DNA of 64,000 bases from positions 142,881 through 206,880 of the forward strand of contig BDIU01000416.1 in NCBI GenBank assembly GCA_002118135.1, in the 5' to 3' direction. Shown here piece by piece: positions 336 through 58,900 of the stretch. The stretch's first letter is position 1; every line of letters starts with the position of its first letter. This stretch comes from Trebouxia sp. TZW2008 (Eukaryota; Chlorophyta; Trebouxiophyceae; Trebouxiales; Trebouxiaceae). Below the pieces are notes generated by a model. That model was not told the DNA's origin. It saw only the letters and a list, made by a program, of their open reading frames with translations, and did no database searches. The position numbers were made by a program, and so were the translations under genes.

Positions 336-850
336 TTGAAGAATCTTGGACAACCTCTCAGAACCCGACAAAGCCAAACCCCAGTTCCTCACTCTGGGAA
401 GGAGCTCCTAGCTCTTTCACTCAAGCTGAGTCACAGCCCATTTACCCCAGCCCATCCCTCTGGGCTGCCCCGCTCTCCCTTTCATGCCAAGTGGCTCTTC
501 TTCTGTTGCAGGGACCTGGACAACTTCTCAAACCCAACCAAGCCAAACCCCAGTGCCTCACTCAAGCTTAGTCACAGTCCACACACCCCAGCACACCCCT
601 CTGGGCTACCCTGCTCCGTTATCCATGCCAAGTGACTATTCTTCTGTTGCAGGGTCCTGGACAACCTCTCAGACCCCCACTAAGCCAAATGCCAGCTCTT
701 CACTCAAACTGACTCACAGCCCATTTACACCAGCCCATCCCTCTGGGCTACCCCGCTCACCCTTCCATGCAGAGCCCATGCGCAGCCTGCCTGTGGACCC
801 TGTCAGCCCTAGCCAAAGCACTCAGCCTGAGAGTGCTGCTGCAGCAGCAG
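336..850 (+). repeat. Three tandem copies of an exon of the Ser/Gln-rich gene
   Basis: Related units begin near 349, 512 and 653, about 166 and 141 bp apart. The second and third carry a TTCTGTTGCAG acceptor; the first has the diverged TTGAAGAAT at that place. All encode a Ser/Thr/Pro-rich stretch with THSPFTPAHPSGLPRSP-like sequence. Only the last continues to a good donor (CAG|GTGAGA at 851) in the phase of the next exon. The middle copy is one base out of register, so it reads in another frame. Confidence 0.7.
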
Positions 851-3800
851 GTGAGATTGATAGTGATGCACATACTGCGCGATAGAACAGCATGCTGCAG
901 GGCAGCAGCAGGTGGAGCGCAAGTCAAGCTCATTTTGAAGGGTTGCATCTTGGCTCAATTGCTGTCACAAGCTTGTTAGAAGTTGAAATTTTGTGAAGAT
1001 GTATTGCACTGTATGTGTTTGCCTGTTGCTGTCCAAGGCCAGCGTTTTGGCCTGTGTGCATCTGCCTGTTCCAATCCCTGTCCTCTGTGTATACTGTGAC
1101 ATGCTCGCATGCGCTGCAGGCTCGAGTCCTGCAGCAACCACTCTAGACACCATCAGAGACAGCAGCAGCACTGCACACACAACATGACAGTATGATTACA
1201 TACTTGATGCGCTGCATACAATGTGACAGACCGTTTTTATCCTTTGTACTCTGTACACACTAAGACAATAAAGCTCTACAGGCTCTGGACCTTCAGGGGA
1301 AGCAGCAGCTCCTGGGAAACCGATGCACTGGACACAGCCAGAAGCTGACTTAGAAGTTACATGCAAGCGCATTCACATGGTCTGTAGCCTGCACGCCGTG
1401 TGACAGCAATGCATGTGCTGCAGGCTCAAGACCTGCAGCTACCACTCTAGACACCATCAGAGAGAGAAGCAGCTCCTGGCAACCAGATGCACTGGTTGCA
1501 GACAGAAGCTGACTCAGACTTTACGTGCCAGCGCATTGATGTCCTCTGTAGCCTGCACGCCATGTGACAGCAATGCATATGCTGCAGGCTCAGGACCTGC
1601 AGCTGCCACTTTAAACACCATCAGAGAGAGCAGCAGCTCCTGGGAACCAGCTGCAATGACTACGGTTGTGCCACAAGTGACTCAGGCAGCAGCTGGCTCA
1701 GAAGCTGAACACAGCCTCAAGGCTGAGTCACTTGATGGTCAGGAACCTGCTGTGGTATCAGTTGATAAAGACGGTGGTCAGCATGTAACTGCACCTGTGG
1801 CACATCCGAAGTTGGGCCTACACCAACATCCAGCTGTGGAGTCAGACAGTGAAGACGGTGGTCGGCATGGTACTGCCGCGCTGGATAGACATAGTCAGGA
1901 ACCTGCTGCGGTCTTAGGCAGACAACAAGAGGCTCAGCATGAGACCGCAGTTACAGCGCAGCACAGAGTAGGGCCTGCAACAAGGGCTGCTCTTGAAAGC
2001 CCTTCCGGGTCAGATGGGTCAGTGGCCAGAAGTGTGGGGTATGAGTCAAACTTTGAAGAATATGACTCAAGTCCTGCCATGTCAGTCAAGTCAGAAGCCA
2101 TTGCAGCAGCTGGCGCTCGGCAGCTTACAGACTCAGTGCATCTAGCGGGTATGTACCACAACTCATCTGCCTGGTGCCAGTGTACATTTGGTGTTTGTCA
2201 CAAGCACACCTGTCCAACCTGACAGGAGCGTGCTGCTATTATAACTGCAAGAAAAGTGGCAATCAACAGAACAACAGGATGTGACTGGTTTGTTCAAATG
2301 GGTATACCTGCAAATTGCAATGTTTGCATTCCCTGCTGCTTGTTTCCACACTGCTCTTTGACACAAATAGCCTCAGAGCCTAGCATTGCTGCATGCTGAC
2401 ACAATTAGGTCCAGGACACTCTGATAAAGTTTGACTGACCATGCCTGCTATGCGTGACAGCCAACTCGCCTCTGCCCAACACTGCTTCAAGCCCGCCCGA
2501 CACCAGACAAGTGCAATACACAGTACTGCAATTTTGTGACAGCAAGAATCAAGTCAAAGTGCTTTGCAGGAACTCCAGACAAGCAGCTGTTCAGCCACCC
2601 ACTGGAACCTGACTCAACAGCCTCAGGAGATGCCCACTCAGCTGCTTACTTGATTTCCTCTGAACCCTCCCCTCAGTCATCCTCTGGCCAGCATGCGCCT
2701 GCAGCAGCATTTGCTGATGGCGCAAGTCCACCCCTGACACATACCAATGCCAGTGGTGAGTCACCACCACTGCAGCCACACCAGTCCCTTCACAGACAGC
2801 AGGAGCAGCATCAGCAGCAGCGACAGCAGCAGCAGCAGGCAGAACAGGATCAGTTAGGCAGTCAACAGTCATCACCACAGCTGCGGCAACCATTGGCTGA
2901 CCTGCGCTTTGTCCAGCCAGCTGGACCCATGCTGCAGAACAGGGGTCAGGTTGAGGGCTGTGCGCAGCAGCAAGGGGGTTTTGCGCCAAGGGTTGAAACC
3001 CTGTTGGACAGCTTTCAGCAGGAAGTGGGCATCGAAAGGAGACTGACTGAGGCCACAGCTGTGCCTGAGCAGGACAGCTCGCCTGAACAGCGGGAGTATG
3101 ACCCACAACGGTACCAATCACGCACAGCAGCACTGCACGCTGTGCATGCCGTGGACGCTGGGCATGCTGTGGGTAGCAGTCAGGCAGCAGCTGCTGCTGA
3201 TGCCCAGCTTCCAAGCAGGTCCAGCCTAGATTCTGTCAGGTCGCCTGATCAGATGCTGAACTGGCCAGCTCAGGCTCCCAGCGCTGAAGCTGTTGAGTCT
3301 GAGGCTCAGGCCCCCTTGACTCAAGGCCTCATGACTCAGGGGCCTGTGACTCAGGCTCGGCTCTTAGACAGCTTGGTGAGTCAGCCTGTGACTCATCATG
3401 CTGACCACCAGCTTCTGGGCAGCTCCCCCAGGCAGGTTGCCATCAGCAAGATCAAGTCCATGAAGCAGGCGAAGGGCATCAGGTCTGAGCAAACCTTTGC
3501 TGTGAACACAAGCATTGAACCCACTCAGGCACAGCATGCCACACAGATAGGCTCTGCTTCACAGGGCATGCTCTCTTCACAGACCGTCAAAGTCTATGCT
3601 GCTCATGGGCCACACTCAGGCTTAGAAAGCGGTCAAATCGCACTGCCCGCAATGTTGACTCCTCAGACTCAGAGTGAAGCAATGCTGGCTGCCTCAACCC
3701 AGAGTCACGCAGTTTGTGCGGATGCTAACAGAAGTCAAGCTGCTGGTGCTGTGCTGTTGCCTCACAGAAGCGTCAGCATGGCAAAGCTACGCACGCACAG

Positions 3801-6800
3801 CCTGACAAAGCACTTGCAGAGCCACCGCCAGAGGTCCTTCACCACTGCTGACACTGCAGCAGACAGCTTACTCCTTCAGGCAGTTGAAAAACAGCAAGGG
3901 CAGGGTCAGGGGCAAGGGCAGGTACAATTGCAAGGGCAGGGTCATGGGGAAGGGCAGGGCCGGGGGCAGGGCCCACTCAGCCTTCAACTAGCCCGTGAGG
4001 CAACATTGACACCTGCCGTGCAGTCTTCAAATGTTTCTGCAGTAGAGTCAGACAAGGTTGATCAGAGGCGCTATGAACAACCCTTGTACTTGTCTGACAT
4101 TGCGCTTGAAGTGCCCCAACAGCACAATTCAGCCCGTGATTCACCCCCAAAGCAGGACCAAGGGCAGCTGCCCCTCATGCGCTCAGCAGAGGGGCTTGTT
4201 GGTGTTACTGACCAGGCTCCGCACACACGCATGACATCTTTAGGGCATCTGCCTAGCAGAGGGAGCAGGTCTGAGGGGTGTAGCCCTGTCAGCTTCCACA
4301 GCAGCTGCGCCACCAGCAGCGTAGGCTCAAGACAAGCTCTCACTCAGAATGCTTCCAATCCCTGTGCTTTGGACTTGCATTCAGGCAGGCCTAGCGTGCA
4401 TAGCAGCAGCAGAGACTTGCAGGAAGAAGAAGTCAGGTCAAGCAGAATTGCACTGTGCATCAGCCCATCAGGTGCAGGTGCCACAGTAAGTCTGGAGCTT
4501 GTGGAATCAGAACATCCAGCTGCCAGCACTGACTCACACCCTGCCCTTGCCTCACACAACGCCTCGTATGCTGAGACATGTCATCAGCAGGCTGGTGTTG
4601 CTGCTGCTGCTGGTGGTGATGTTCAGGCAGGGCCTACTGCATCAGCACAGGTTGTGTCTGCTGACATGGCTGATGCTGGAGTGCTTTCACAGCGTGAGCC
4701 AAAGCCAACTGTGCGGCGTGGTCCTAGCCACAAGGGCAGTTCAGCTCAAAGCCTGCTGTGGAGGCTTGAAGGGGGCCTAAGGGGGTTGTTAGGCAAGGCC
4801 TCAAAGCCACAGACTCTGAGTCAAGAGGTGACTGCCAAAGCACGCCTTGTTGTTGCTGTTGTTGTTGTTGTTGCTGTTGTTGTTTCTCTTGATGTCGAAG
4901 CCCAACAGGCAAGTTCTGGGTGACTGAGCGGAGTATATGCTGCAAACAAAACATACATTGTCAGTGGTGCGAGTTTGCCCAGATTGGCTGCGATGAATTG
5001 GTGTAAACAGTCATGGTCAGCTCATCTAAGGCTGCTCCAAGGCATCAGCTGATCCAAGGCTGGTTGTGCTGAAATGCAGGCCACAGCAGGAGAGGTACAG
5101 TCAGCAGTACATGCACAGCCTGCCCATGATGCTGCAGCCTCACAGCACAGCACTGCTCACCCTTCAGCCAACCCCATTGCTAACCTCTCTGCACCCGCCC
5201 AACTCCCCCACCACCCAACCACCCACACGCCCTCATCAACGCCTCATTCTGAGTCACAAAGTGCTGTCCACCTCCAACAGGCTGCTGCTCCTGACCAACA
5301 CACATTGGCATCTGGTATGGACCCTAGCAGCCAAAGACAGGCTGTGGTGTCAGTACAATCAGCTGGTCCAAGTGGTGCTGACGGTGCCAGTCAGTATGCC
5401 TTCCATCAACACGCTAATGAAAGGCAGCATGCTGCCCATCAGACTGATAGAGAAAGGCAGGCTGCTGCCCATCAGATTGATGGAGAAAGGCAGCCTGCTG
5501 CCCATGAGTCTGCCAATCAAGGGCAGGCTGCTGCCCATCAGTCTGATAGTGAAAGGCAGTCTGCTGCCCATCAATGCGCCAGTGAAGGGCAGGCTGCTGC
5601 CCATCAAAGCTCTGCTGCTGCCCATCAGAAAGCCCCTGACCATCAGCAGCCTGCTGACCCTCAGCACATCATTGGCAACGGCAGTGCCAGTCATCGCAGT
5701 GCTGCTCACAACCAGGCATCTGACAAAGGTAAGGCCTGTGCTGCAGCTGTGTTGGCAGAAATGTGGCATGTCACAGGACGTGAACATGGCTGGATACAGT
5801 AAAGTCTCTTTATACCGACTGCTTGGGCACCAAAAATCTTGTCATTATATTGAGTTGTCCTTACTCACAGGGACCACTACTCGCAGGGACCACTACTCAC
5901 AGAGCAGAATGCAGTGACTGATTGCTAATGGTGTTGTCCTTGCATCAACTTAGTCCTTACAAAAAATGTTTAATGTAGCAGCCAATGCTCCACATTGCAT
6001 GATGTCTGGGTCATGGCTGTGTGCAAGCTTTGCTCAAGACGTGAATTTTTCTCTAACACTTTTCAAGAGTAGGAATCAAGCAGAAAATGCATTTGTAGCT
6101 TGTTCATGTTCATGTTGACAGCAGCAGCAGTATCGGCATTGGCTGCAAATGGCCATCCTGTGAGCAGCAGCCAGTCTGATCCTGCTTAGCCCATCCTCTG
6201 AGCAACTCCCCCATGTCATCATGCAGGCCGGCAAGTGCCAAGGGCTAAGCAGTATGCGCTGGCCAGGCTGAAAACAATCAACAGCACCCGCCAGCTGACC
6301 TCCTTGTCAACCACCCGCCTGCATGGCACAAGGTATGCTGCAGATAGACCAACCCAATGTTTCTGTCAGCTACATGCATCAGGCATCAGCTTCACGCAGC
6401 AATTTAACATGCATAGCTGCATGAAATACTGGCTGGCGTACCTTGCATACTCTGGATGACTGTGCACAAGCACATCGCCTATCATGCAGGTACACAGTTC
6501 AACAGGTGCAAGAGCCAATCTGCATCACTGTTCAGTAGGCTTGAATGTCTGGTTGGTGACATGTTCTGGATTTCACACTTGCAGGACAGCTACTGACAAG
6601 GATCTGCATAGTTGGTCTGACCAATTCTCGCCTAGATCTCCATTCCAGCCTTCTTCCAGCTCACGTGGATCCTCAATGCTGGCCTTCACCAACCCTGCCT
6701 TTCAGCACACGTTCGTAAGCCGCATCCCCAAGCCAACCCCCCTACACCCTCCTAGAGACCCCCACCCACCCTCCAAGGACACTCTGCAAGAGCTGCCCAG

Positions 6801-9800
6801 CACCAGTCAACTGCAGCCTGCTTTGCATGCTGGTCATCTGCCGCCAGGGCTGCTGCAAACAGCCCCTGGGGTGGAAGCTACACAGGCCACAGCTGCGGCG
6901 ATGATGCTACAGCAAAGTGCTGCTGGGCAGTCCACACCACAACAGCCGCATGGTCCTGTCCACCACCTCTTTCATCAACCAGGCCATGAGGTCTTGTCTG
7001 TGGTGTCATGGGAAGATGAGTCATGCAGTCAGCAGCAGGGCATTGCTGCACCTAGCCCTAGGGCAGCTGATGCACGGGGGACAAACAGGGGTGAAGCTGA
7101 TGAGGGGGTTTGGGTTCATGCTGGGGAGTCAGTGGGGGATCAAGCAGGCTTTGGAGAGCTTTGTCGCAGGCTGGCTGCTGCCATAGAGGTGTGTCTCCTG
7201 CTGCGTATTCATGTAGACTGGCAGACTGGCTGCTGCAATGGTGTTTTGTCTTGTGACGCAAAAGACAGAGGGCTGAGCCCTTGCAGGTCAAGTTTCTGCG
7301 GATTGTTGCTTTGAAAGCAGCAATCCCGGCCTGCCTGTTTAGACAGAGGGTCCCGTTATGACGCCTGACGGCATAGACTATTCTTTTCTTTGCATTACTG
7401 ACACTTACTCTGGCTGCCAAATAGAGGAGATGCTGACCTTTGAGACATCCAACAGTTGGACAATGAACTGCAAGTGGGTATTGAGTGGTGGGTAGTGGGC
7501 GCTGTCAGCGTGCAGCCATCACTAGCTAGCACACACATCTAGCCTCTCTGACCTTGCACAGTCAGGCAATGTATGCAGCTGAGCAAGTGAGCTGTCTTAC
7601 AGGGAGCTCGCATCAGGCATCGCCTGCGGCGGCCAGCCTGCAGGAGCCTTTGTAGTGAGATTCTGGACATGCACCACCTGCAAAGTGCTCTTGGGCCAGG
7701 GCAGGGCGCAACTGATGCAGCCCTGCAGCGGCAACTCAAGCAGCACCTGAGAGTGCGCAGGTCAGTACACGAGCTGCCAAGATGCCATTCTCAGCAAGTC
7801 ATATTTTGCAGTGAAGCACGCAAAAGCCTGATCTGCATCAAGCCTCTCATAGATGCTTTGTAACTTATGTTGCACTGTGCAGCCAACACTGGAGTTGCTG
7901 CTCGCAACAGTGTTTGAGAACCATAGAATGCATCACCAAAATTTGCAGCCTGAGCAGCACATGGAGCACCTGTCACACGCAATGCCACTGCCTGTGCATC
8001 ACAATTGTTCTGCACATGCACTCATTGTTTACACTACACTTCGTTGGCCTATGCAGAATCCAGCTGGCTGAACTGCTAGCTTCTGCCCTTCCAGTCCCAG
8101 ATGCCCTGCCCATCAGCAAGCCCATCCTGCCATCTCAGGGCCCCCCTTCCCACCCTGCAGTTGAGCCCTCAGCCAGCTCTGACTCAGCCCTAGATCATCA
8201 GCACCAGTCATCAGCTGCAGTGAGCACTTGTGCAGCAACTGCCTCAGCAGGAGCCGCTGCTGCTAATGCTCAGAAAGTGAGTGCTGGTGAGGAGGCTTCA
8301 ACAGGTGGGATTGAGGGCAGGGGTGAGGGCAATGCCAAGGGCATTTCTGAGCTCAAGCCAGAGGGCAGAGCTGAGGGCAGTCCTGGCCTCAGGGCTGAGG
8401 GCAGTGGCAAGGGCAGTCCTGGTGTCAGGGCTGAGGCCATCGACAAGGGCAGCTCTGGACTGAAGAGGGAGGGCAGGGCTGAGGGCAGCGGCAAGGGCGG
8501 TGCTGGGCATGCTCAGGGAGCGTCTTTGAAGGGTGTTGCACCCAGCGCCTATACCACTCTGCAAGCAGTATGTTCCCTGAACAAATTACCCTCTATTATT
8601 GCATACAAGCAACTGCCATAGTGCTGACTGCCTTGCAGCATCATCATCATCATCAAGCATCACAAGTTCCAGAAGCACTGATGAAGGTTGACAGTTGATG
8701 TCTCAAGCATGCAGTACTGTCATACAACAAGTTTTTGGCTTGCTTGACACAGCAGAATGACAGTGTGAAAAGCTTGCCATTGTCAGGTGCCAAAAAAAAA
8801 CCCTGAGAACAAAAAAAACAGATGGCATTTTGCGCAGGCTCAAAAGGAGCTGCAAGAGGTGAAGCAGCAGCTAAGTGCCAGCCTGCAATTTAGTCCCAGA
8901 GGGGTTAGAGCGCACACCCCCCTCAGAGCCCCCAGAGGTCATCCACATGCAGGCTTAACCCATACTCAGGGTTTAACAACTCCTGCCCCTCTAAGTAATA
9001 GCAGAGATCACTATGCTCCAGGCAGTGCACCTGAGAGCAGGGCAGAAGATGAGGGCTCTTCTGAGAAACGGCCATTCCTAAGGAGGCGCTCCAGGCAGAT
9101 CCCTGTCAGCCAAAGGTGATGCAACATTTTCAAAGATGGCAATAGCTGAATTCAGTGGCAAATGTCCTATTTGCTGCACTGTGCAATATTGTGTACGGTG
9201 CAAGACATTCAGCACTTGTCTAGCTGCTTTCTGGTCTTGGTAGCACTGTCCCTGTTCATGTAGTTGTTACTGTGCAGCAGTTGAGGGACTGTAGCTTTCT
9301 AATGAAAGCTTGCCAAACCTACCTGGCTCAGATCTTAGTCTGTATGCAACATATCTGACAGCTCAATTTGTACTGAGCAATGCTGCAAGCATGCAGTCAC
9401 GCAGCCTGCTGATCAGCAATCCTTTTGGCGCGTATTGACACCAAGCAGTGCTGGACCCAGAGATGCGTCAATCGCCAGATCTGCAGCTGATCATTGGAAT
9501 CATCATGACCAAAGCCTGCTGAGCCCTTGCTCTTGTTTTCACACTAACTCACATTCCTGCAAAGACTCTATCTTGTCTTTGCAGGCTGAATTGGAGTGCT
9601 GTCAATCCAAGGACGCAATGTCGCTTGGACTCCTCCTACATTCCTGTCAGAAAGAGTCACCATCAGCAGCTTCCTGCTACTGCTCAGTCGCTCAGTGTTG
9701 GAAGTGAATGCGCGTTGCATAAGTCCACATGCAATATTCATAGGACTCAAGCGTTGTTGTGCAGGCTGAATTGGAGTGCTGTCAAGCCAAGAACGCAATG

Positions 9801-10551
9801 TCGCTTGGAGTCCTCCTACATTCCTGTCAGAAAGAGTCACCACCAAAAGCTTCCCTCCTCTGACCAGGAAGCCAGTCAGGAAGCTGCTGGGGCTAGTCCT
9901 AGGGGCACGAGCAGAAAAACCCAGCCCAGGTGAGCCCTTTTGTCAGCCTGTTTGCTATAACCACAAGGCCGTTGTAAAAAAGAGCAACAACTCTACAGAT
10001 GCTTTACATGATACGATCGCAGCGCCTGCCTCTGTCTATCAAGCACGCTGAGTCGACACCAAGTTGGACTACTGCTTGCATGTCTACAACAGGATCAACT
10101 GCAGCATGTGGTGGATGGATGCATGCAGCGATCCAAAATGCTCAAGCTGACACAGGAGAATGTAATAATTTGCTTGTGTCATGCTCTGGAAGCAGATTGC
10201 CCAAACTTGCACTGACGCACAAATTTCAGGAGGCGGCCCAAGATGAGCTGTTCTGAAGCAATAGCAATTGCTGTTTGCAGGAAAGCGTGGGGCAGCAATC
10301 AGCCTGACCCAAGATCGCGCGCAGGCCCTCAAGCAAGTCCCAGTCACTTTCAGCCCAATGCTACTTATCAGTCGCCATACGCAGCCAGTCCCAGTGTGTC
10401 AAGCACTTTGAGAAGTCGAAAGGGCCAAAATACAGAATCCGAGCAAGAGCAAGGGAGGCCAGATTCTGGAGCAGCTCCTGGTCCCTTAGACGATATTCTT
10501 GGACAGGTCACTGACCTATTGTCTCAGGTCAATGACATTCTCGGTAGATAG
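653..10551 (+). CDS. Large Ser/Gln/Ala-rich low-complexity protein, unknown function, 5' end unresolved
   Basis: I do not recognise this gene. Eleven exons join with agreeing phases: 653-850, 1588-2148, 2570-4908, 5080-5728, 6227-6332, 6585-7188, 7603-7760, 8057-8567, 8787-9115, 9765-9929 and 10281-10551 (stop). This gives at least 1,962 residues; the first exon shown opens in phase 1, so the start lies further left. The intron after 4908 appears to be GC-AG (CAG|GCAAGT, phase 0). Visible content: a polyGln/Ser/Ala exon (2570-4908) with Gly-Gln repeats, a valine run from a GTT repeat near its end, an 11-residue repeat (5400-5640), a basic segment (6227-6332), likely coiled coils (7603-7760 and 8787-8880), a Gly/Glu/Ser repeat (8290-8520) and a C-terminal heptad-like tail ending DILGR. 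No catalytic motif or membrane segment is seen. It looks like a long disordered scaffold or regulator. Three of its exons have extra tandem copies. Confidence 0.65.
1110..1665 (+). repeat. Tandem copies of the exon beginning GSGPAAATLNTIRE
   Basis: Acceptor-plus-exon starts (GCTGCAG followed by GCTC) lie at 1120, 1424 and 1588, and a further partial copy without the acceptor lies near 1285. The copies include the intron sequence upstream (for example CTGTAGCCTGCACGCC). All three acceptors are phase 1, matching the donor at 851. Copies at 1120 and 1424 reach stop codons within about 25 codons; only the 1588 copy stays open to 2148. Confidence 0.7.
5400..5640 (+). repeat. 33 bp in-frame coding repeat (11-residue unit, consensus ERQAAAHQSD)
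   Basis: Within the exon 5080-5728, about six imperfect 33-base units encode ERQHAAHQTDR, ERQAAAHQIDG, ERQPAAHESAN, QGQAAAHQSDS, ERQSAAHQCAS and EGQAAAHQSS. The unit length is a multiple of three and the frame is kept throughout, so selection on coding is likely. Confidence 0.85.
5795..5960 (+). mobile_element. Pogo-like MITE copy 1 (right end unclear)
   Basis: Begins TACAGTAAAGTCTCTTTATA and continues with CCGACTGCTTGGGCACC and repeated GTCCTTAC/ACTCACAGGGACCACT segments. It matches the copies at 34365-34537 and 49688-49865. It lies in the intron after 5728. The right terminal inverted repeat is not recognisable here, so the element is eroded. Confidence 0.65.
7262..7395 (+). repeat. Dispersed ~130 bp repeat, copy 1
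   Basis: Contains GGGCTGAGCCCTTGCAGGTC, an imperfect palindrome TTGCTTTGAAAGCAGCAATC, then TTTAGACAGAGG, GACGCC and TTCTTTTCTTTGC. A clear relative lies at 42400-42535 and a partial one at 11350-11450. It has no ORF and resembles a short non-autonomous element; its class is undetermined. Located in an intron of the Ser/Gln-rich gene. Confidence 0.7.
8277..8567 (+). repeat. Gly/Glu/Lys/Ser coding repeat flanked by two in-phase donors
   Basis: Degenerate repeats of the type AEGSGKGSPGVRAEG. A strong donor (AAA|GTGAGT at 8277) precedes the repeat and a weaker one (GCA|GTATGT at 8568) follows it. Both are phase 0 and both match the next acceptor at 8787, so the repeat segment could be included or skipped without changing the frame. 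Confidence 0.55.
9581..9929 (+). repeat. Exon pair duplicated exactly 180 bp apart (9585 and 9765)
   Basis: Two near-identical acceptor-plus-exon segments start at 9585 and 9765; both follow TGCAG and open in phase 2, matching the donor after 9115. Both encode LNWSAV(N/K)PRTQCRL then SSYIPVRKSHH. The second ends at AG|GTGAGC (9930) in phase 2, matching the last exon at 10281. The first lacks an obvious in-phase donor (a weak one at 9687 would fit). Confidence 0.75.
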
Positions 10552-11349
10552 TGCAGCGGGGAAGTAGAAAGTGCAAGCAGTGATTTCGCAGGACTAGTTA
10601 TGCCAAGCAATGACTTTGTGTGTTTGTGCAGATTGTCAGTCCTGACATTGTAGTCAGTCACAGTGACGGCGTTCAATCAGAGCTCTGTCTAAAACTGCTG
10701 CCAAGTCACAGGCATCTGATGCTCATCTTTCAGGGTTTTCATTGGTTTTGATGGGCAGCTTGTACCGGTGACCTTCAGTATTTGTGTTGTCTTGCTCTCA
10801 CGAAAAAGGCTTCAACTCGCAACATTTCAATGGTTTACATTGCAAAATAAATGTCAAGTTCAAAGACAGACAAATGGCAAATTCGAGCTCTGTGCAGACA
10901 CTGTCTGCGATATCTGCTGAATCTGACATCATTGCAACATGAGTGCTTTCTGATTGGCAACCGCCTGGAATCCAGCAGCAAATCTGTAAAAACAAAAAAC
11001 AAGTCTGAGCCTTTTGACGTCACAAAGGGAGCAGCTGTGAATATAAGCAGCCTGAGATCATTACCATCAGGCAATCTAGCGCTGCTTTCAGAGCGGTCAC
11101 CAGCAAGAAGTCAAGCAATGGGTTGTCATTTCTAGCTGTATAGGTATTACAAAGGGAAGGACTCATGCAAATCGCAGTGGCTCCTTGAAACCTTTCAATA
11201 TCAGACACATGCATTTTGCCCAAGTAATGCATATGAGGCTTCAATCAGCTGTAGCCATGACCTCCGGCACCCTCAGCATCATCCATCATCTTCTCAGCTT
11301 TCTTTTGACGTTCAGCACCTGCACACCACAGGTCAATTTGAGATAAATG

Positions 11350-11450
11350 AATGCTGTGACATGAGGTGGGCCGAGCTGTCTTTACAAATAGAGGCTCCTG
11401 TTATGACGCCTAATGCTGTAGAGTTTTCTCATTTCTTTTGATTTCATCGG
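11350..11450 (+). repeat. Dispersed repeat, partial copy 2
   Basis: Shares ATAGAGGCTCCTGTTATGACGCCTAAT and the T-rich end with the copies at 7262 and 42400. The palindromic left half is missing or diverged. Confidence 0.55.
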
Positions 11451-13228: not shown

Positions 13229-16200
13229 TCATCTGGCACGTATTCTTCGCTGTCGATGCCATCTGAGTCCATGCCGAGTCAGCGTGACAAACAGGTAGTA
13301 ATACACAATTGCAGCCACCGCAAAACCCTCCACCCTGAACCTATAATCCTGAGGGAACTGGTACAGTGCCAGAATGTTGCCCTTGGTGCGAGGCGCCAGT
13401 ATTATTACTGTAGCAAGCGCTGTGAATGTGACTGCCAGGCTCAGAAGAGGAACAGTGTGGAAGATGGGTTGTACGAATAGTCGAGTGTCCACTGTGAGGC
13501 TGACGATAGGCCCAAGCAGTTGAAAGTTGGCGGTGCTCCACATTTGAGTGACGATGGGATTCTGCACATTATTAAGATGCGATGAATAGCAAATCTGAGT
13601 GTTGATGAGGTTCTACACAACAGCCAAAATCATCAGCATTGACACGATCAACATCTCAATGCATGCCAGCCAAACGCACTAACATGAACACTTGGGCAGC
13701 ACACTCAAGCAACGCTACACACCACCATAATGCGGCGCATAGCAAGCTTGAGTCACAATGAAACTCTGTACATCAATATAATGCATTGGTTGGCAACATG
13801 AGTGGCTCAAAATCACTTACGCACAAAACACAAGCAGTCACATTTCAGTCATATTCAGAAGTGCTTACAATTGTAGAGAAGCCGTCGCCTCCTGAGTACC
13901 AGGGCTGGGTGGTCAGGTACCACATGGTGAAAATGTCAGTGGCCACATCAGACAAACGCAGTGAAAAAACAAAAACATCGATCACGTCAAAAGCAAGAAC
14001 AAAGGGAAGGCTTACATCTTTGGCAGAGCCATTGCCTCCCAAGCACCAGGGTCGAGTAGTCAGGTACCACATGGTGAAAATGTCAGTAGACACAAACAGT
14101 GTCACCATCACAGTCACCAGCACATAGCTCTGCCAAATGCCCACCTACAAGCAGGCAACAAGTCCTTGATCGTACACTGGACAGATATAGAGTATGGTGT
14201 GAATCTGCAGCAGACAGCAAATGTGCAGTAGGAACTGATGATGATCATGGCTGGGGCTGAGCTCAGAAAAATTGCAAATTCAGCGCATGAATTCAAAATG
14301 TTACATCAATACGCACACAACTGTGGAGTATCACGTAGATTGATTGCACGCTTTGTGCTTGAGTGTCAAGCTTCAGAGTCATCTGTACACATCTTCCAGG
14401 CAATATCTTTAAATGCAAAACCGCAAACTGTGTGCATGAGTTTTATATGCCAAAGTCATGAGAGTGCAGTCCTGTAGAGTGATCCAGGGTCAGTTGGGGT
14501 GCAAATCTGGAGTGCTCAGCATTAGATAGCAGAAATTGATACTAAGCAAAAAGGGCCCCCCAACCTGAGAGAGGGATGATGGGGCCTCATACTACGCAAG
14601 GGGGTTCAGGTGCAAACTGTGTGCATGAGTGTTGAATGCCACAGTGATGAGAGCGCAAGTCTGGGGAGCAATGTAGGATCCCCTCACCTGGGAAGGGGGG
14701 TGGTGGGGGCTCATGCTACGCAAGGGGGGGCATGTGGCAGCTGCAAAAGCCATGGACAAGGCCTGGAAATCCAGCGCGTAGTCCTGCATACACAAACAAA
14801 ACATTGTTATGTAAAGCTGGAGACATATCAAGACTTTGGAGTTGCTGGCAGCACCCTGTCTAGAGCTGAAACTTTGCTTTTGCTGTATTGGCTATGAGGC
14901 AGAAGCCACAGACAAGGCCTGGAAGTCCAGTGTGTAGTCCTGCATACGCACTGTCTGTTTAAGCTAAGCCAGAAAGATGATGAACGTCCCAAGCTGTTGG
15001 CAGCACCCATTTTAAGAGCTGAGGTTTGGATTGTGCTTTGTTGACCTTTTGACAAATGCCATGAACAAAGCCTGGAAATCCAGCATGTAATCCTGCAACC
15101 ACACAGCCTCTTTGTTGAAAGCCTGAAAGCAACTGTGAAATTCTGCACTGCTGGTAGCGCCTGCTCAAGGCTGAGTCTTCATTGACTGAATGGCAAAAGG
15201 CATGGATAAGGCCTGGAAGTCCAGTGTGTAGTCTTGCAACCACACATCCTGTTTGCGCAGATCACAGAGCATGTTAAGGCTCCTGGGACACTGGCTGAGC
15301 ATGACTTATGTCTGCAGGCTTGGCGATGTAGCAGCACATGCACTGGCAATGTGTCAGCAGAAGCAGGGCATGCTGCTTGCTCAGTGACATTGAGCTTGTT
15401 GCAATGAGAGTCTGCATACAGACACCCATCCTAGCAGACTTTGCTTGCTGCAGATCGTAGAATTGCTGCCAAACTGTCAGCAGAAGCAGAGCAGCATGGT
15501 TTTTGAGCTGTTACAATACCTTGAGGTGATCTGCTGTACCTGGGATTGTAGTGACAAGCAAACCATTTGCAGCAGCAGAACACGCAGATCTTGTGCTGTA
15601 GTAGCAGATGCACTCAGAAGCAGGGCAAGCATGCTGTGGGCACTAGATCAGGTCACACAATGGCTGCCAAACTGTCAGCAGAAGCAGAGCAGCGTGCTGT
15701 TTGAGCTGATTTGATACCTGCTGCAATTGAGATTGCAGCGACGGGCAAAACATCCACAACAGCAAAATATGCAGATCTTGTGATGCAGTAGCATATGCAA
15801 TGGTCAAATCATCAGCAGGAGAAGGAGCATTGGATCTGTTTGGGTTGGGATCCTGCCTGCAGGTAGTCAAAGGAGGACCCATCTATGAAGAAGGATATGT
15901 TCTCAGCAGCTGCCTTCAAGCACTGGTACACCACCATGTACTGCACATCAAACACTCAGCTGTCATCATCTGCATACAAAGCAGTCAGCAAATGCTACAA
16001 ACGCATGTTCAGACGCTTCCGTATTGATGGTTGTTGGATCATGTGGTCGTTAGTCTGTGTCTTGAATGCACGGCAACATGCAGACACAGCGACATTTGGT
16101 ACCAATCTGGCCAGTCATTAGGTTTTGCAGGCATTGTACAGCGTTACTGCTGCATGCGGACGCAGCTCAAGCTATGCAAGCACTGTTGAACCACAGCAGT

Positions 16201-42336: not shown

Positions 42337-42399
42337 CTTGCTGTGGTGTCAATATGAGAAAGCTGATGGAAGGCTCTCAAAGCAGGACAAATTAGGCAC

Positions 42400-42535
42400 A
42401 CCACAGACAAAGGGCTGAGCCCTCGTAGGTCATGTTTTTGCTGGTTGCTGCTTTGAGAGCAGCAATCCCGGGCTACCTTTTTAGACAGAGGCTCCAATTA
42501 TGGCGCCTAATTGCATAGGCTTTTCTTTTCTATGC
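42400..42535 (+). repeat. Dispersed ~130 bp repeat, copy 3
   Basis: Matches 7262-7395 over most of its length: GGGCTGAGCCCT, the palindrome TTGCTGCTTTGAGAGCAGCAA, TTTTAGACAGAGGCTCC, GGCGCCTAATTGCATAG and a TTCTTTTC end. It lies just after the bZIP stop codon and may be part of its 3' UTR. Confidence 0.75.
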
Positions 42536-49900: not shown

Positions 49901-52900
49901 ACTGTTACATTACTGCTAGCACTTTTGTCTGCTGCAAATCGAGTCTGAGATCACCAGAAGTGACAGGCTGCAACCTGATTCACCATCATGTTGCAATGAC
50001 AAATATGAGACAAGTCATGACATTGTGTCATTGGAGCATGATGGGGTATAAGATCATAGGTTGTCACTTCCATGACTTCCAATGCCAGCCACGCAGGCTG
50101 TCAAGTGCAAATGTACCAGGCAGGACAATGAATGGCACAAGCAAAAGGATGAGGGAGAGCGTGAGCACAAAGCACGAGCACGAGCACAAGCGCAAGCACA
50201 AGCGGAAGCGCAAGCACAAGCAGAACCACAACAGCATAATACCAGCTGCACCAGACAGAGCTCATGACCCAGCAAAGCAAAAATCCAAAACAATTCATTA
50301 AACACAGGGAACACCGCAGGCAGGTCTGGGAATGATGGGAAGAACTCAAGAATCAGTGTCTTACTTGCTAGCCTGGCACACCATTAGTAAGCAGATTGCA
50401 GCCATGCAATTCAGGCCAAACAAAACCACAAATCAAATAGCAAGGCTGTAAAACTGCCTGTGAATACACAGCAGCAGGTGACTTGCTTGCCAGCCTGGCA
50501 CGTCATCAGTAAGCGCTCTGTAGCCGTACACTGCAACTCCAGCACTGTACGCGGCCAGCATGCTGGTCACATGCGCTGCAGCCCAATGCAGCCGGCCAAA
50601 GCTATAAGACACCAGCGTCCTGCAATAAACACATGTCAAATGTTATGAAGCCATACGCTGCAACTCCAGCGCTGCAGGCAGCCAGCATGCTGATGACGTG
50701 GGCCGCAGCCCAATGCAGCTTGCCAAAGCTGTAAGACACCAGTGTCCTGCACAAGCAGCATACAGAATTTTATGTAGGTGTACACTGCAATCGCAGCGCT
50801 ATCGGCAGCCAGCATGCTGATGACGTGGGTCCACAGTACCTGTCAGCATGTCTGCCTGTCATTATCATGCGCTTGTTTGAAGGACAAGAATGCTGTGCAC
50901 TCTTGATGTGCATTCTTGTCCTGCAGACAAGGACAAGAATGCACAGCTCCAACCATAACCTTATGACACCTACCTGTCAGCACTGTGTGATGCAGTGTCT
51001 GTGACAAAGACTCATAGTCTGCACAGTCAAACTGCAGCTTGTGAGCATGTTGCATGTGCAACATCCTGCTGTGTTGACACTGTGTTGTCATTGTTGATAT
51101 TGTCTGTTGACCCCCCTATTGGGTACCAAGGACAGTAAAATTGATTGATTGATTGATTGATTGACTTGCCTGTCATCATCATTATGTGATGCAGTGTTTG
51201 CGGCAAAGACTGTTATCTTACACACCGGGACTGCAGCTTCTGTGAGCCTTGCAAATGACAGCCTGGCAGCATTTGCCGTTCATCCTCTTCCCACTCGCTG
51301 GATGACTCAGCACCTTGGCTGTGACTAACAAGCTGCCTTCTTCTCTGCCCTGCCAGCAGCCCTTGAGTTGCGCCCTGCCCTGCTGACTGGACTGAGGCTG
51401 AGGCTCTGCATACATCCTTGATTTTAACTGATGTGGTGATGCAGTCAAAGCTCAAAACAAAACATTGGTTTTGAGCAGAGACCCATTTTGGGGTAAAGTG
51501 CGCAATGTTGACTTTGAGCAGAAATGAAATGCTTACCTGTTGGGAAACTGGTTTCCTGACAGTGTCAGGTCCACTTCCGTGGCAGTTGGGTGCAGCTGTA
51601 TCTGTAGCCACGTTTCATCCTGCCTGCACGTGCATCAACAATTCGTTGTAACTCATACAGAAGGCTAGCTACCACAACAGGCATGCAACCTCTGGACAAG
51701 CTTCAACAAAAGACAATGTGACAGTCATGCTGCCTGGAAACTAGTTTTCTGATGGTGCTGAGTCTACTTGTTTGGCACTTTAGTGCGGCTGAGTCTGTAG
51801 CCATGCTGTATCCTGCCTGCACATGTATGTCGAAAGGCTGTACGTTTGCAGCAAGGTTGGTCACTGCCACATACATGCAAGATCACAAGCTGAAAGAAGC
51901 TACACAGAATTGCATGCTCTTGGGCAGCAGACAAGGGACACTATGGCCTATCCAAGGCGTCGCAAACATGGCTTATGCTGTAGTCTTCTGTTATTATTGC
52001 TCTGGTTCAATGACATGCTACTGTATGATTCACCTGGCTAGATCCAGCAGTTCCTGGTCCAGCAACTGCAGCTCCGCAGCCATTCTAGATGACCAAATCA
52101 AGTACACCTTGTCGGGCACCCCAGGAGCGCTGTTGGGGTCAGCCTGCTTACCCCGAGCATATTGCGCCATGTGACGAAGCATGCCCAGCATGGGTGTGAT
52201 CTGTAGGCACAAATGCAGAGTCAGCAATGTACAGTCAGCAGTGCAGAGTTTTGTATTGGTCATCGTGTGCCATGTGGCGCAGCATGCCCAGCATGGGTGT
52301 GATCTGTAGGCTCAAGCAGTGTGCGATGAGCAGTGCACAGTTTGAAACAGTCATCTTCTGCCATGTAGCTCGGCATGCCCAGCATGGGTGTAACCTATAG
52401 TCAACAAGCAGTGCACAGTCAGCAGTGCACAGTCAACTTGGACAAATTATGCCATGTAGCGCAGCAAGTTCAGCATAGGCATAATATGTAGCCCCAGAGG
52501 CATAGTCAGCAGTGTACATAATGCACATTTGAACTTAGGCATGTGCTGTGACAGATGGCGCAGTATGCGCAGCAATGGTCAGTTCTGAATTCACAGAGCG
52601 GTGCCAGTCATCGGTGCATTGTCAGCAGTGCATATTCAAACGTGCACGGTAAGCAATGTACAGCCCTTGACGCTTAGTCAGCAGTGCAAAGTCAGCACTT
52701 CATTGTCAGCAGGTGTACAATCAGCATTCTCACACTCGACAGTGCTCAATCAACATCCCTACCCCAATGCCTCCAGCAAAAATGACCAGGATCTGATGGG
52801 CAGCCCACTTCGGACCTTGAGGGCAGCCAAAAGCCCCGCTGGCCTTTATCAATGGGAGCTCCCCCTTTGCCAACTTGCCTATCAAGCCCTGCAAAAGGCA

Positions 52901-55900
52901 GCTCAAGTCACAGCATTGTCTGCACAGCATGCACTGGCCTACTGAGGACCTTGAGGGCAGCCGAAAGGCCCGCTGGCCCTTATCAATGGGAAGTCTCCCT
53001 CTGACAGATTGCCTACCAAGCCCTGCAAAAAGCAAATTGATCCAGACTTTGATCAGGGCTGGTCTGGTGCTGCATCGACCATTGACTCAGACATGCTGAT
53101 GAGTTCAAACCATGATGCCAGGCAAATTGCGGCAACCCTGTCCAAATGCATTGAGCTCTGGCATTGGTTGACGTCAGCACACACTCTTTTGCCCAGGCAT
53201 CTCAAACAACGGCGCCAAAAAGATTGAGGCAATCTTAGCCATGTGCATTGATGTTGGCATTGATCGAGTATGCGCAGGCAGTCTTTGCCAAACAGGTGCA
53301 AAGGGCGCGTACACCTAGCACCTGTCCTAGACTGTTTACCCTGTCACCAACGCTGATCCTGACATTGTCATTGCTTTGTTATTGTCATTGCTCATTATTG
53401 TAGCTCTTGTTTTGACCATTGGATATGGCCTTGACGCCTTACCTTGATTCATGCACCATAAGCTTTGAAGTGTACTATCACATCTCCTGAGCTGCTAGGG
53501 TCCCTAGGATCCATCCACATGTCATATTTTCCTGTGATTCTCATGAGCACTGCCACATTACTGTGGTGTTGATGTTGAATACCATTGGTACAATTTTGTT
53601 CTCTTTTAGAGCTACTGTCAATACTGTTGAAAATGAAAAGTCACGTAAGAGACTGTACCTTGATCCATGCACCATAAGCTTTGAAGTGCACTACCACGTG
53701 CACTGAGCTGCTAGGGTCCCTAAGTTTGTCCATGTGGGTTGAACCAATGCTGACTGGATGCCAGTGGATCTTATCAAGGCTTGAAATGATGACACATGAA
53801 GCCTTGATGCATTACCTTGGTCCATGCGCCATAAGCTTTGAAGTGCACAACCACGTCCCCTGAGCTTGTGGGGTCCCTAGGGTTGTCCATGTGGGTTGAC
53901 GCAATGCTGACTGGATGCCAGTGAAACTTACTAAGGCTTGGGATGTTGATCCAAAGGATCTGGGAAGGGATGAGCTCAGCAACCTACACGTGTGCAGTCA
54001 TCTCTTGATATGAGAACCATACAATACAAAATCAGTGCAACATGCTATCAGCATGACATCAAAACACTGAAAACCTGTAAGTACGATGCGGCTGGGACTT
54101 GATTCAAACACATACATAGATACATCAGTATGTATAAGTAGCTGCCATGGCTCCAGCGCAGGGCCAGCGTAAGCTAAAGAAAGAAACATGCATGAATGCA
54201 CTCAAAAACAAATGCATCCAAACATCAGGACAAATATCTTACATGGCTCCAGCGCAGGAACAAAGTAGCCAGGCTGCCATCTTGAGACACGCTGGAAGCT
54301 GAAGAGGCTGGCACACAGTGTAGCCACTGCGCCACCCGGAAGCTGACATCCAGCAAGTATAGCACAAAACCTGCACAAATGAAATGGATTCTAGTGCAGC
54401 AACAAATGGTGTCGTGCAACAGTTCTGCTTCAGAACCAGACACACTGGAAGAGGCCGGCACACAGTGTAGCGACTGCGCCAGTCGGAAGCTGACTTCAGC
54501 AAGTATAGCACAAAACCTGCGAAGATCACTTGAATTATAATGTAGCATGAGACCATGTGGTCGCTGCAAGAAACAGTATTGCTTCAGCGTGAAATGTTTT
54601 GCTTCAGCATGGGACTAAATGGGTGCATGTGCAGATGTACGCATGAAGCAACTAGCATGAGAAGCAAATGAAGCAACAGTGACTTTTGGTCAATCACGGG
54701 TTCTATATCACCAGCATATGCAGTGTGACTGCATGCGTCCAAGTGAGGGTATGTACTGGCAGGGTGTAAGCCCACATACTCTGATAATGGATGAAGGCAA
54801 AGGTCATGAACAACATAAGCAATCACGCGCTGGCACCAATATGTTGCTCATTTTGCATTTCACGTTGCATCTCAGTGGGTGTAAGCCACACATTTGGATG
54901 ATGGAAGGACAAATCAAGTGTACAAGGTTTTGTCAATTTTTGATCAACCACGGGTTTGAAAGCACCAGCAAATGTAGTGTGATTGTAGGTGTCAAAGTGA
55001 GGGTGTGTACCTGGCAGGGTGTAAGCCCACATGCTTTGACATTAAATGAAGGCAAAGGGCATGAACAGCACAAGCACTCACATGTTGGCACCACTGTACT
55101 GCTCATGTCACTATTCACTTTGCATCTCAGTAAATATTCCAATCATGGTCTTCATTGCTGCACCCTGACTCAATGTGACTACAGATATTCAGGACAACAC
55201 GCGTATCTGGTAGGGTGTAAGCCCACACACTTGGATGATCGAAGGAGAAATCAAGTGCACAAGGATTTGATGACTTTTGGTCAACCACAGGTTCTATAGC
55301 ACCAGCAATTGCAGTGTGACTGCAGCTGTCAGGTGAAGTCAAGTGAGGGTGTGTACCTGGCAGGGTGTAAGCCCACATGCTCTGGTAGTGGATGAAGGCA
55401 AAGATCATGAATGTCAGGAAGCCAATGATGTGGAAAACGTAAAAGACCTGCAGCAGCAGCAAAGTCATTCCTGTATGTCAGGAAGCCAATGATGTGGGAA
55501 ATGTAGACCTGCAGCAGTACAGCAAGCGCTTGATTTCAGAACACTCAATACAAGAACATTCTTGCTATTGAAATAACGCAATTGTGAATCAATCACTATA
55601 TCGCAGCCACTGACAAGAGATTATGATCACATATCTTAGTCACATCCTTGCACCAACATCTCATGGTGCAGGGAGACCAGGTCCAACATCATGCATCAAC
55701 ATGTCTGCAATGACGTTTACTTGGTACCAGCTGTGATGCACACACTGAGTAATGATCAGCTGCATCTCGACCTTTGCAGCTGTTCCTGTTTACCATACCG
55801 TGCCTAGTAATATGTGCGACAGAGGTAATGCAGGCTTGCTATAAAGTGCGTGATCAATTGAGCAATGGAGGTGTTACAGGCTTACTTGGTACCAGCGGCG

Positions 55901-58900
55901 ACGCACATATTGGGTAGCAAGAAGCTGCATGACTAATCCTGCAGCTCCAGCAATACTGCCTGCCAGCCTGTTGACCCCCCTAGGGTTCCACTGTAGGGCT
56001 TTGTCCTGCCACCTGCACACATGTTCATGTTGTGATTGGACAAGCATATTTGGGGAAAGGGGGCCCTCAGAGGGGGCTCACTGGTGGGTGCAAAGTCAGT
56101 AAGCGTGGTACAGCAAGCCATGCAGTGAGCGGCTGAAGAAGACTCGATTGGAGCAACACTGCAATATATGGTGCCAGGAGGGACCTTTCTGGTGGGTGCA
56201 GATTCAGTGAGCATGGTACAGCAGGGAATGCAGTACGATGCTGAAGATGAGTTAGCAGAAGCATCAGTGCAACACGCTGGTGAGGAGCAGCAGTGGGTGT
56301 GGTTGGGGGGAGGGCGGGCGGAAGGGGGGCAGGGTTGAGGGTGGCAGAGGGAGCTTACTGCTGGGTGCAGATCCAGTAGGCATGGTACAGCAGACCATGA
56401 AAAGCGACCATCAACACAGTGCCACTGCCTAGCCACCTGCGGAAACAAGTGGGCACTCAATGCAGAAACAGCTGCATCCACACTGTGCCGCACTTTGCAT
56501 TACATAGTCAAGTATGATTATATGCTTCAGAGCGCTAATGTATGTCCTTTGACACATGCATCTCGGAATCAAATGATGGTCTGGCTCACATGTTGTTGAT
56601 CAAGATCCACAAAGTGCCTGTTGATGTCGACTGGAAAACAATAGGTCTGATTTGACGTCAGGAAGCAACAACCCTTATTCACTGACAAAGCCAGGGCAAA
56701 GCCTCTCCAATCAGCTGTGCAATCACAAGACAAAGCGGCTCACTGCAGTCACAAACAACCTATGGTCTGCACACACAAACAACCTATGGTCACTGTTCAT
56801 GCATGAGGAAAACTTTTTGCCAACAGGCAATGCATATACGAGTTGCAGGAATTATGCAGTCATTGACAGTAATCACCTGTGATGACCACAATGGTCTAGT
56901 CAATTTTGAAGAGACCATGCAAACATTGTCCGTGCAAACTTAGGGTGTGACACCGTCAATGCAGTAGTTACCTATGGTACTTGACCAGGCCGGGGAAGTC
57001 AGTGTTGAACAGCCAGTGCAGAAAGGTGTTGCGGGGGACCGGATAGAAGAGGAGTAACAGGTCAGTTGAGGCAGCCCACCCAACTGCTTGCGCAGTTCTG
57101 CAGCAGCACAGCCATCTCTTTGAGATGAGTGTATGGCAAAAAGGGGTATAAGCCACAATGCACATTAGCACACATGAGTACAAATTGGTGCAGCAAAGCA
57201 CAGTAAGTGCTGACTAGTAAGTGCTGACCAGTAAGTGCTGACTAGTAAGTGCTGACTAGAAAGTGCTGACTGCATCAGCAATGCATATCAGCGGCAGTCA
57301 TGAAGGTGACATCAGATGCTGCCTGTAGCTGCACTACTACATACGAGATCGCCAGTATTGCACAAACAGCCACAGCTGACGCAATTGACACTGACTGCAT
57401 CAAGCATGCACAGGACCCATAGGCATGAAAGCTTGTACAGACACTCACAACAGATGTTCTTTGCAGACTGCATAAAGAGAGAAACAGGAGCATGGCTCAT
57501 TGGTGTCGACAATGCATAAGGGAAGGAACAAGAACATTGTGTGTTGATGCGCACCAGCATGCAGATGACCAGCTGCCCATGCGATACAGCTGACACAACA
57601 TAAGGGGAGCAACAAGGCTATAGCAGGCTTCCACAGACAACTCTGTAAAGCAGGGGTATGTGACTCACGCTAAGTAGACGCCTGCTGCATAGGATCTGTT
57701 GCTGGTGCCCGCCTCTTCTGCCGCTGCACAACACAGCATCTGTTCGTGAAGCAGTGTCGTTTAGGCTGTAGGCAGGCAGGTAGGCAGGCAGGCAGCCAGG
57801 CAGGCAGGCAGGCAGCCAGGCAGGCAGAGTCAGCAACATTCATGGATAGGGCAAAGGGCATCAAGGACAGCAACTCAGGGCAGTTTGCCACCTCTGAAAT
57901 TGCACCCAGAACACGCCCATGAACTATCCAGAGTTGTACTGTTTGCGACAACAGAACAGGATTGCAGCAGGAATGCAGCAGGCGCACAGGAGTCAGCAAG
58001 AACAAAGTTACAATGACAAAGCAGGGAAGTGTGTCGCACCTCTGAGAAAGGGCAGTTTGCGTTGAACACTGGCACAAACCCAAGTCAGCTGTAGCACCAA
58101 CCAGAACACCACCAAGACAGCGTCCATCACATTCAACCCCCCACACACCCACTGCCACAGCCCTAAAGGGGGTACTGGTCTCGCCAATAGTCTCCTTGCC
58201 TGCAACACACATGGTTGCATTCTTGCATGCTTGATTGGTGCAAATCTTTGTGTGTCTGTGGCTGAGAAGAAGACCCCAGGGATAGAAGCCAAATGACTGG
58301 AAGTCAAAATGATGCTCAAACCCCCATACACCCACTGCCACAGCCCTAAGGGGGGTACTGGCCTAGCCAACAGTCTCCTTGCCTGCAACACATATGCTTA
58401 CATGCTTGCATCCTTCACTGGCATGATCCTGTCTCTGCCTGTTGCTGAGAAGAAGACCAGTGGAAAGATGCAGAAACCATTTACGCACATACAGACGCAA
58501 TCAAGTGCCTCCCTGCAAGTCTACCGGGGGTGAGTAAAACGAGTTCGCACATTAAGTTTTCAGGACAAGAAATAAGAGGTCACAGAAACAGAGAAAATTG
58601 TTTTGATTCCAAACTGGACTCTGAGCTTGTTCCCAGAACATCGCAGCCTGAAATGCAAAGTTGTCACAAAGGCTCTTGCAAACCATCATCGTGATGTCTG
58701 CTTGGCAAATCCCTACCCAGACTTTCAAGCTGTGCAGAGCACAGTGCAGCATAGCATGCATTGACACCACAAAGCCATGCAGAGTGTAAACTTGGTTTAT
58801 TCTTGCCAATCCTCACCTGAACCCTCAAGCGGTCCAAGTGGTCCTATTCACAATGTGACACAGCATGCGTTGTCACCGCCAATGCTCAAATAGAGTCTTC

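Follow-up and report, generated by a model that had tools for sequence, protein, structure and literature searches.

Direct repeats in the window and in the genome

The DNA analysed here (the window) is a stretch of 64,000 nucleotides of Trebouxia sp. TZW2008, positions 142,881 to 206,880 of contig BDIU01000416.1 (C392:142881-206880 in our numbering; the assembly examined comprises 68.5 Mb in 527 contigs). It holds genes for a Ser/Gln-rich protein, a P5B ATPase, a secreted hydrolase, a bZIP factor, an F-box protein and a ferric reductase, together with short direct repeats that, in the P5B ATPase gene, include pieces of exon ends lying in the adjoining introns. A sequence-only reading had proposed that the Ser/Gln-rich, P5B ATPase, bZIP and ferric reductase genes all carry tandem copies of their own splice junctions, and that the F-box and hydrolase genes carry none.

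Self-comparison of the window by BLAST (E ≤ 1e-6) yielded 87 pairs, of which 80 were direct at distances below 1.5 kb, 5 inverted and 2 dispersed (hand count). Clustering gave 36 arrays between positions 324 and 58458, with a smallest period per array of 58-254 bp and identities of 66-92%. No repeat pairs were obtained from any of 15 Markov-shuffled sequences (one shuffle for each sequence), and the tandem repeats of the window are thus real. In a more sensitive search of 30 sequences, 301 local pairs were direct and 6 inverted.

Repeat coverage was 20% for the whole window and differed between its regions: 42% for P5B, 34% for ferric reductase, 15% for bZIP, 13% for Ser/Gln, 2.4% for hydrolase and 0 for F-box. 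It was zero in the stretches taken as intergenic (11.0-13.2, 41.5-44.5, 46-48 and 58.5-64 kb). The F-box gene region is therefore free of arrays, as had been read; the hydrolase region is not, since one array lies there (Table 1). The proposed copies of own exons in four genes were borne out by spliced alignment for P5B, where the repeats contain exon parts with one splice signal. For ferric reductase one copy of an exon start was seen in translation, and for bZIP and Ser/Gln repeats only.

The genome was sampled with fourteen 10-kb pieces cut from evenly numbered contigs, always at the same position. Such repeats were present in 12 of the 14, with a mean coverage of 10.8% and two pieces at zero, and covered 21-42% of P5B loci L024-L030; the pattern is accordingly a property of the whole genome. 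Repeats also occur outside modelled genes, because the surroundings of two sampled genes, GLDC and importin-5, had coverages of 0.113 (2083 bp) and 0.108 (566 bp), respectively. The copies diverge by 5-30%, which weighs against an assembly artefact, a possibility that the sequence-only reading had raised.

Exon pieces in the introns of ten genes

Homology-based gene models were built with our own protein-to-genome spliced aligner for ten genes: the P5B ATPase of the window, seven other P5B loci, GLDC (sampled locus L015) and importin-5 (sampled locus L010). The closest relatives of the P5B proteins in a protein search were Trebouxia proteins, with identities up to 57%; GLDC is 87% identical to a protein of Trebouxia sp. 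C0005 and importin-5 89% identical to one of Trebouxia sp. A1-2. By these proteins the alga belongs within Trebouxia or beside it. In the P5B model of the window, exon 22804-22838 and the terminal exons are weak, and an extra 3' coding match (13241-13564) lies outside the model.

Intron positions recur among the P5B genes. Spliced alignments, in which exon lengths and phases recur, placed a 206-bp exon in 8 of 8 genes, a 105-bp and a 231-bp exon each in 7 of 8, a 138-bp exon in 6 of 8 and a 192-bp exon in 5 of 8. As the paralogues have intron positions in common, the introns are older than the duplications.

Exon edges are the usual source of the copies, which lie in direct orientation and on a fixed side. 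The P5B loci contain 127 exon-piece matches in flanking introns, mostly half exons without one splice site. In the spliced alignments of P5B, GLDC and importin-5, pieces containing an acceptor sit upstream of their source exon and pieces containing a donor downstream of it, which fits what tandem duplication requires. Exceptions are the array at a 58-bp exon of L026 whose model is weak (this array also contains the sole complete-exon copy) and possibly importin-5 exon 9, which is cut by the locus end. The matches of that exon and a match between exons 4 and 7 of importin-5 were excluded from the counts of edges, joins, offsets and steps. The largest array (24024-25664) has as its unit the last 123 bp of the actuator-domain exon, the donor and a piece of intron.

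Within the exon, the end points of the copies are arbitrary and differ between paralogues. An AG or GT within 8 bp of the exon-side edge was no commoner than at the same place in the working exon (donor-side copies 17/27 against 18/27, acceptor-side copies 17/25 against 17/25). A spacer between copy and source was present for 46 of the 66 nearest copies and absent for 20. The 44 spacers compared gave two 12-bp matches, and 4 matched another of the ten genes; a mobile element or introner was rejected because the spacers have no common sequence family.

The P5B ATPase family is large; its matches are spread over 17 contigs, or 16 should C50 and C432 be redundant. Loci L030 (C50:230001-237000) and L031 (C432:31635-38634) are identical across all 7000 compared bases, which reflects either assembly redundancy or a very recent duplication. 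A search of the genome itself for a near-identical paralogue with an empty site gave short matches only, the C50/C432 pair being uninformative.

Other repeats were seen in the same genes. In the P5B gene of the window, a 108-bp inverted repeat, 88% identical (20852-20958 and 21162-21269), overlaps exon 21174-21365 with its right arm and so resembles an exon piece copied in inverted orientation. A minisatellite with 15-bp steps, unlike the exon-derived arrays, lies in a P5B intron at 28904-29298. The sequence of about 100 bp at 16419-16549 is an older dispersed repeat, found at 76-90% identity in at least 43 further places in the genome (best 40 of 918 candidates scored). In L010, an array at 5085-5440, within a 2169-bp importin-5 intron, has no recognised exon source.

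Homology ends close to the splice site

Among the farthest or only junction-reaching copies of P5B and GLDC, homology stopped no more than 30 bp into the intron in 33 of 41. With importin-5, added to this set afterwards, the count was 37 of 47, and GLDC and importin-5 alone gave 7 of 9 (p=0.006 against 0.32). Simulated random tandem duplication with neutral decay placed 19%, 22% and 32% of the ends within 30 bp at mean identities of 88, 82 and 77%, respectively. At acceptors homology reached a median of 12 bp into the intron, at donors 12.5 bp. In the 18 farthest copies that were at least 85% identical, ungapped identity was 0.87 across the final 30 bases of the exon and had dropped to 0.34 between 16 and 30 bp inside the intron. 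When the flanks of 35 copies of at least 85% identity were examined, 9 showed homology continuing past the match on the intron side and 2 on the exon side (p<0.05).

Exon sides with a single copy showed the same limit, 18 of 25 stopping within 30 bp of the junction. Inner copies of arrays extended more than 30 bp into the intron oftener than the farthest ones (36 of 65), which suggests a seed limited to the exon end that was later amplified together with its spacer. The proposed fall of similarity with distance from the true exon was not general: identities of at least 88% were found in 10 of the 41 farthest junction-reaching copies and in 10 of the 65 nearer ones.

A step of about 160 bp

The offsets of the 66 nearest copies had a median of 162 bp and quartiles of 127-189 bp. 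Piece length and spacer were negatively correlated (-0.47) in the 41 spaced copies with an offset of at most 300 bp, and the offset was tighter than sums of independent pieces and spacers (p=0.0002, or 0.010 if permutations were truncated likewise, and 0.036 over the full set of 46 spaced copies). Spacer-free copies had similar steps of 60-202 bp. The step thus looks like the primary feature, and this speaks for tandem duplication or backward template switching more than for insertion at random distances. Mismatches, whose clustering would be a sign of conversion, were little clustered in 98 pairs (mean z 0.25; 12% above 1.64 against 5% expected), and gene conversion therefore explains the lost intron flank poorly.

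Association of arrays with exons

Array counts were weighted most, because an array is the nearest proxy for an independent event. In P5B and GLDC, 51 of 55 arrays touched an exon, 4 of 55 being confined to introns; circular shifting predicted 39.0±2.9, and none of 2000 shifts reached the observed number. Among arrays spanning at most 350 bp, 23 of 26 touched an exon (14.8 expected). Importin-5, counted by hand outside this set, had 7 of 8 repeat clusters touching an exon. In a simulation of random single duplications that allowed for selection against disrupted exons, held the working copy under constraint and applied the same detection, 42% of the detectable events touched exons (1042 detected of 1571).

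Decay of the copies and intron length

Changes were polarised as those unique to one sequence in groups of at least three. Working exons had 18, 7 and 57 unique changes at codon positions 1, 2 and 3 (61 synonymous, 23 nonsynonymous, 0 stops), and the copies had 126, 96 and 169. In the copies, 145 changes were synonymous (104 at random), 231 nonsynonymous (271) and 12 stops (13.5). Splice dinucleotides were kept in 33 of 43 copies for AG and 31 of 42 for GT, about as expected of neutral sequence at 84-86% identity; two of the 43 acceptors are model starts, unproven as acceptors. The nearest offsets fell evenly into the three classes modulo 3 (23, 21 and 22 for remainders 0, 1 and 2; n=66). Among 44 related proteins, including 38 relatives of P5B, none had an internal near-tandem repeat (at least 20 amino acids, at least 50% identity, within 200 amino acids). 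Judged from their sequence, the copies look functionless.

Intron length is usually ascribed to transposons. Here, the lengths of the 82 P5B introns of at least 60 bp were correlated with repeat coverage (rho 0.74). Repeats were present in 0 of 11 introns of 60-200 bp, in 1 of 15 of 200-350 bp and in all 18 longer than 700 bp. Of the 43 introns with any repeat, 40 have exon-derived ones. As long introns carry repeats and these are mostly exon-derived, duplicated exon ends appear to be material for intron growth.

Other regions of the window

Arrays outside the P5B gene are included in Table 1. The flanks of the two copies at 9564-9854 have no visible homology, and the similarity of the ferric reductase pair (52803-53034) stops near the acceptor. 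A sequence of 40-42 bp at 37787-37834 has four inverted matches, 90-93% identical, at 38295-38698 within the bZIP array. The 77-bp sequence at 51088-51164 is a young dispersed element, with at least 39 further places in the genome on both strands at 85-97% identity, most above 92% (best 40 of 89 candidates scored). The dispersed pairs of the window are 7263-7393/42405-42535 (83%) and 34365-34543/49693-49871 (78%). A scan of the window against Rfam gave no match at the gathering score.

Table 1. Repeats and associated exons in the window (positions numbered from its first nucleotide).
Positions	Strand	Feature	Details
14754-30102	-	P5B ATPase gene	spliced alignment with Trebouxia C0005 protein; 18 modelled exons
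29418-29600	-	P5B exon	acceptor edge copied once upstream
29566-29717	-	array, acceptor-edge copy	period 106, 85%
26808-26956	-	P5B exon	copies on both sides
26884-27239	-	three acceptor-edge copies of exon 26808-26956	78-90%
26169-26896	-	four donor-edge copies of exon 26808-26956	period ~160; farthest stops 4 bp before donor
25542-25844	-	P5B actuator-domain exon	ends MLSGE
24024-25664	-	array, eight donor-edge copies of MLSGE exon	period ~180
23575-23928	-	acceptor-edge copies of exon 23543-23647	
21250-22081	-	four acceptor-edge copies of exon 21174-21365	steps 160-214; fifth near 22.3 kb
20552-20847	-	acceptor-edge copy of exon 20431-20661	offset 174
20019-20201	-	acceptor-edge copy of exon 19856-20061	offset 117
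18676-19416	-	two acceptor-edge copies of exon 18568-18744	
16900-17534	-	three donor-edge copies of exon 17425-17566	steps 167-186
324-770	+	array, Ser/Gln-rich gene region	smallest period 170
1107-1658	+	array, Ser/Gln-rich gene region	smallest period 164
9564-9854	+	two copies, piece starts at acceptor-like GCAG	90% over 112 bp, offset 180
31608-31751		array, hydrolase region	87%
38174-38865	+	array, bZIP gene region	period 119, ~5.6 copies
52803-53034	-	ferric reductase exon start 52803-52900 and upstream copy 52937-53034	85%
52158-52587	-	array, ferric reductase region	smallest period 103
53428-53949	-	array, ferric reductase region	smallest period 157
54680-55411	-	array, ferric reductase region	smallest period 254
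58133-58458	-	array, upper end of ferric reductase region	period 183

Discussion

We propose, with a probability of about one half, that short local duplication acting throughout the genome copies exon ends into the adjoining introns and lengthens them. A duplication whose step is about 100-220 bp, most often close to 160, would put an exon end into the neighbouring intron, and each event would leave the working exon intact and add a spare half-exon, either acceptor and exon start upstream or exon end and donor downstream. The spare, having no detectable function, would drift. Being direct repeats, the exon and its spare can be amplified by unequal exchange or slippage; arrays containing the stretch of intron between them would result, and the intron would grow. 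The event may be a backward switch of template, or fill-in, in the course of break repair or replication; a nucleosome-sized distance may set the step, and exons may be favoured through the state of their chromatin or their transcription. Replication slippage, one of the origins suggested in the sequence-only reading, fits such a process, as does a related copying error. Drying and rewetting is a source of DNA breaks in lichen algae. We put forward only tentatively, and consider doubtful, the more specific proposal that exon ends, along with their splice signals, are duplicated into flanking introns in nucleosome-length steps across the genome by DNA copying that is coupled to exon definition or exon chromatin, and that this process is one of the main sources of intron growth.

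Several observations weigh against the duplication of exon ends as proposed. Pairs that reached at least 15 bp to each side of a junction numbered 59 against 57.0 expected from random placement, and single units containing one junction 24 against 21.7 (p 0.33; exons of 60-240 bp). On the same exons, units comprising a complete exon numbered 0 against 2.0 (p 0.11) and units inside an exon 3 against 7.1 (p 0.06). Pair counts were in excess only for pairs of at least 80% identity with the copy within the exon (32 against 18.9; 11 against 6.1 at 88% or more), which can be explained by one-sided conservation. An apparent deficit of complete-exon copies (0 against 13.8, with half-exon copies at 53 against 29.1) is not claimed: the expectation used first was too high because long multi-copy alignments inflated it, and the recount by units gave the values above. 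The results on the exon tie thus point both ways, depending on the counting unit; a tie of the kind that had been read from the window is supported, as one to exons, by whole arrays and by the ends of homology, and is not supported by plain counts against random placement.

Further points on the same side concern the copies and the models. Among the 66 farthest copies, 19 end more than 5 bp before the junction, within the exon. Pure tandem duplication should copy the intron side as well, which most single copies lack, and the evidence from the step and that from the edges therefore point different ways. The changes in the copies are unevenly distributed among codon positions (chi-square p=3e-5), so that strict neutrality is unsupported; presumably part of the branch assigned to an old copy is really exon lineage, from which a mild positional excess is expected, and we therefore call the decay near-neutral. 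Finally, the gene models were derived by homology throughout.

According to the alternative that we regard as rather unlikely, ordinary tandem duplications arise anywhere; selection purges exonic ones, the conserved partner keeps exon-touching ones visible, and geometry and detection bias account for the pattern. Junction-spanning pairs and one-junction units do match random placement, exact arrays and spaced copies have the same step of about 160 bp, and coverage does not fall steadily away from predicted coding sequence (by a weak predictor, with sensitivity 0.33 and false-positive rate 0.08). However, the simulation that included both effects fell far short of the observed share of exon-touching arrays, the simulated edges within 30 bp of the junction were much rarer than those found, and the window stretches taken as intergenic have no repeats. 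An explanation that reconciles homology limited to exon and splice signal with a step near 160 bp is that the duplications are old, their exonic part having been refreshed by gene conversion from the working exon while the intron part drifted beyond recognition. It is improbable given the scarcity of mismatch clustering, the exonic end points that differ between paralogues and the inner array copies that retain intron parts at similar divergence.

Copying of pre-mRNA fragments, each an exon end with the footprint of a splice signal, back into the locus would account for the almost exclusively direct orientation and for a source limited to the exon and, on either side, some 12 bp of intron. Such insertion predicts neither the fixed side nor the characteristic step, and a neighbouring exon was joined in only 2 of 68 copies at p<0.05, about the chance level, which speaks against the re-insertion of spliced RNA considered in the sequence-only reading; we judge RNA-mediated insertion very unlikely. 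A role as mutually exclusive or alternative exons, for which the copies had been suggested as raw material, is favoured by the retained splice dinucleotides and by a third-position bias of the differences between copy and working exon. It is nevertheless highly improbable, since polarised changes are near neutral with stops at expectation, offsets are divisible by three in only a third of cases, most copies are half exons without one splice site and the related proteins contain no such repeats. Scarcely credible here is the gain of new introns by tandem duplication of an AGGT-bearing exon segment (the Rogers model): tandem duplication of exon sequence adjoining introns is indeed present, but the introns predate the copies, as the recurrence of the 206-bp, 105-bp and 231-bp exons among paralogues indicates. 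We rejected it also because the copies are partial exons, mostly with one splice signal, inside longer introns and not period-length AGGT exonic units.

Known intronic minisatellites and tandem-repeat arrays run head to tail with a constant period; here, in contrast, the repeated unit comes from an exon end of the gene itself, and many copies stand singly, with a spacer. In the excerpts covered of the papers cited below, the nearest precedent is the potato RdRp gene, where a single tandem duplication, taking in the 3' side of an intron and the 5' side of the exon after it, created a new intron that used the inherited branch site, tract and acceptor (PMC4974935). The duplication across an intron-exon boundary is shared with our case, whereas the many copies, the lack of new introns seen in the P5B genes and the usually unshared intron sequence beyond the splice signal are not. 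The tandem genomic duplication model of Rogers (1989), as described there, likewise has exon-derived units that become intron (PMC3443670, PMC4974935), whereas the introns studied here are older than the duplications. Fill-in and end joining of staggered breaks give small tandem duplications that are said to aid genome expansion (PMC8355091); these are also local and direct, but the text covered speaks of short (<100 bp) insertions and describes no exon preference. Spontaneous tandem duplications in helq-1 mutant Caenorhabditis elegans, ascribed to end joining of aborted recombination intermediates, range from about 100 bp up (PMC8654963). With a median of about 1 kb they are larger than ours, again with no exon preference in the text covered. 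Among the top literature matches listed (titles and beginnings of abstracts), no report of a comparable genome-wide pattern appeared. The words "tandem" and "exon" are absent from the main texts of two Trebouxia genome papers (PMC12712428, PMC11523091), as are "tandem" and "exon duplication" from that of the Asterochloris genome paper (PMC6652019).

Working exons, being under selection, provide a fixed standard against which short duplications can be read and dated. For annotation, gene finders applied to Trebouxia will meet many open, splice-site-bearing false exons. If exon edges are truly the preferred source, splicing or exon chromatin would influence DNA rearrangement, and this preference is testable within the genus, for which several Trebouxia assemblies and RNA data have been published.

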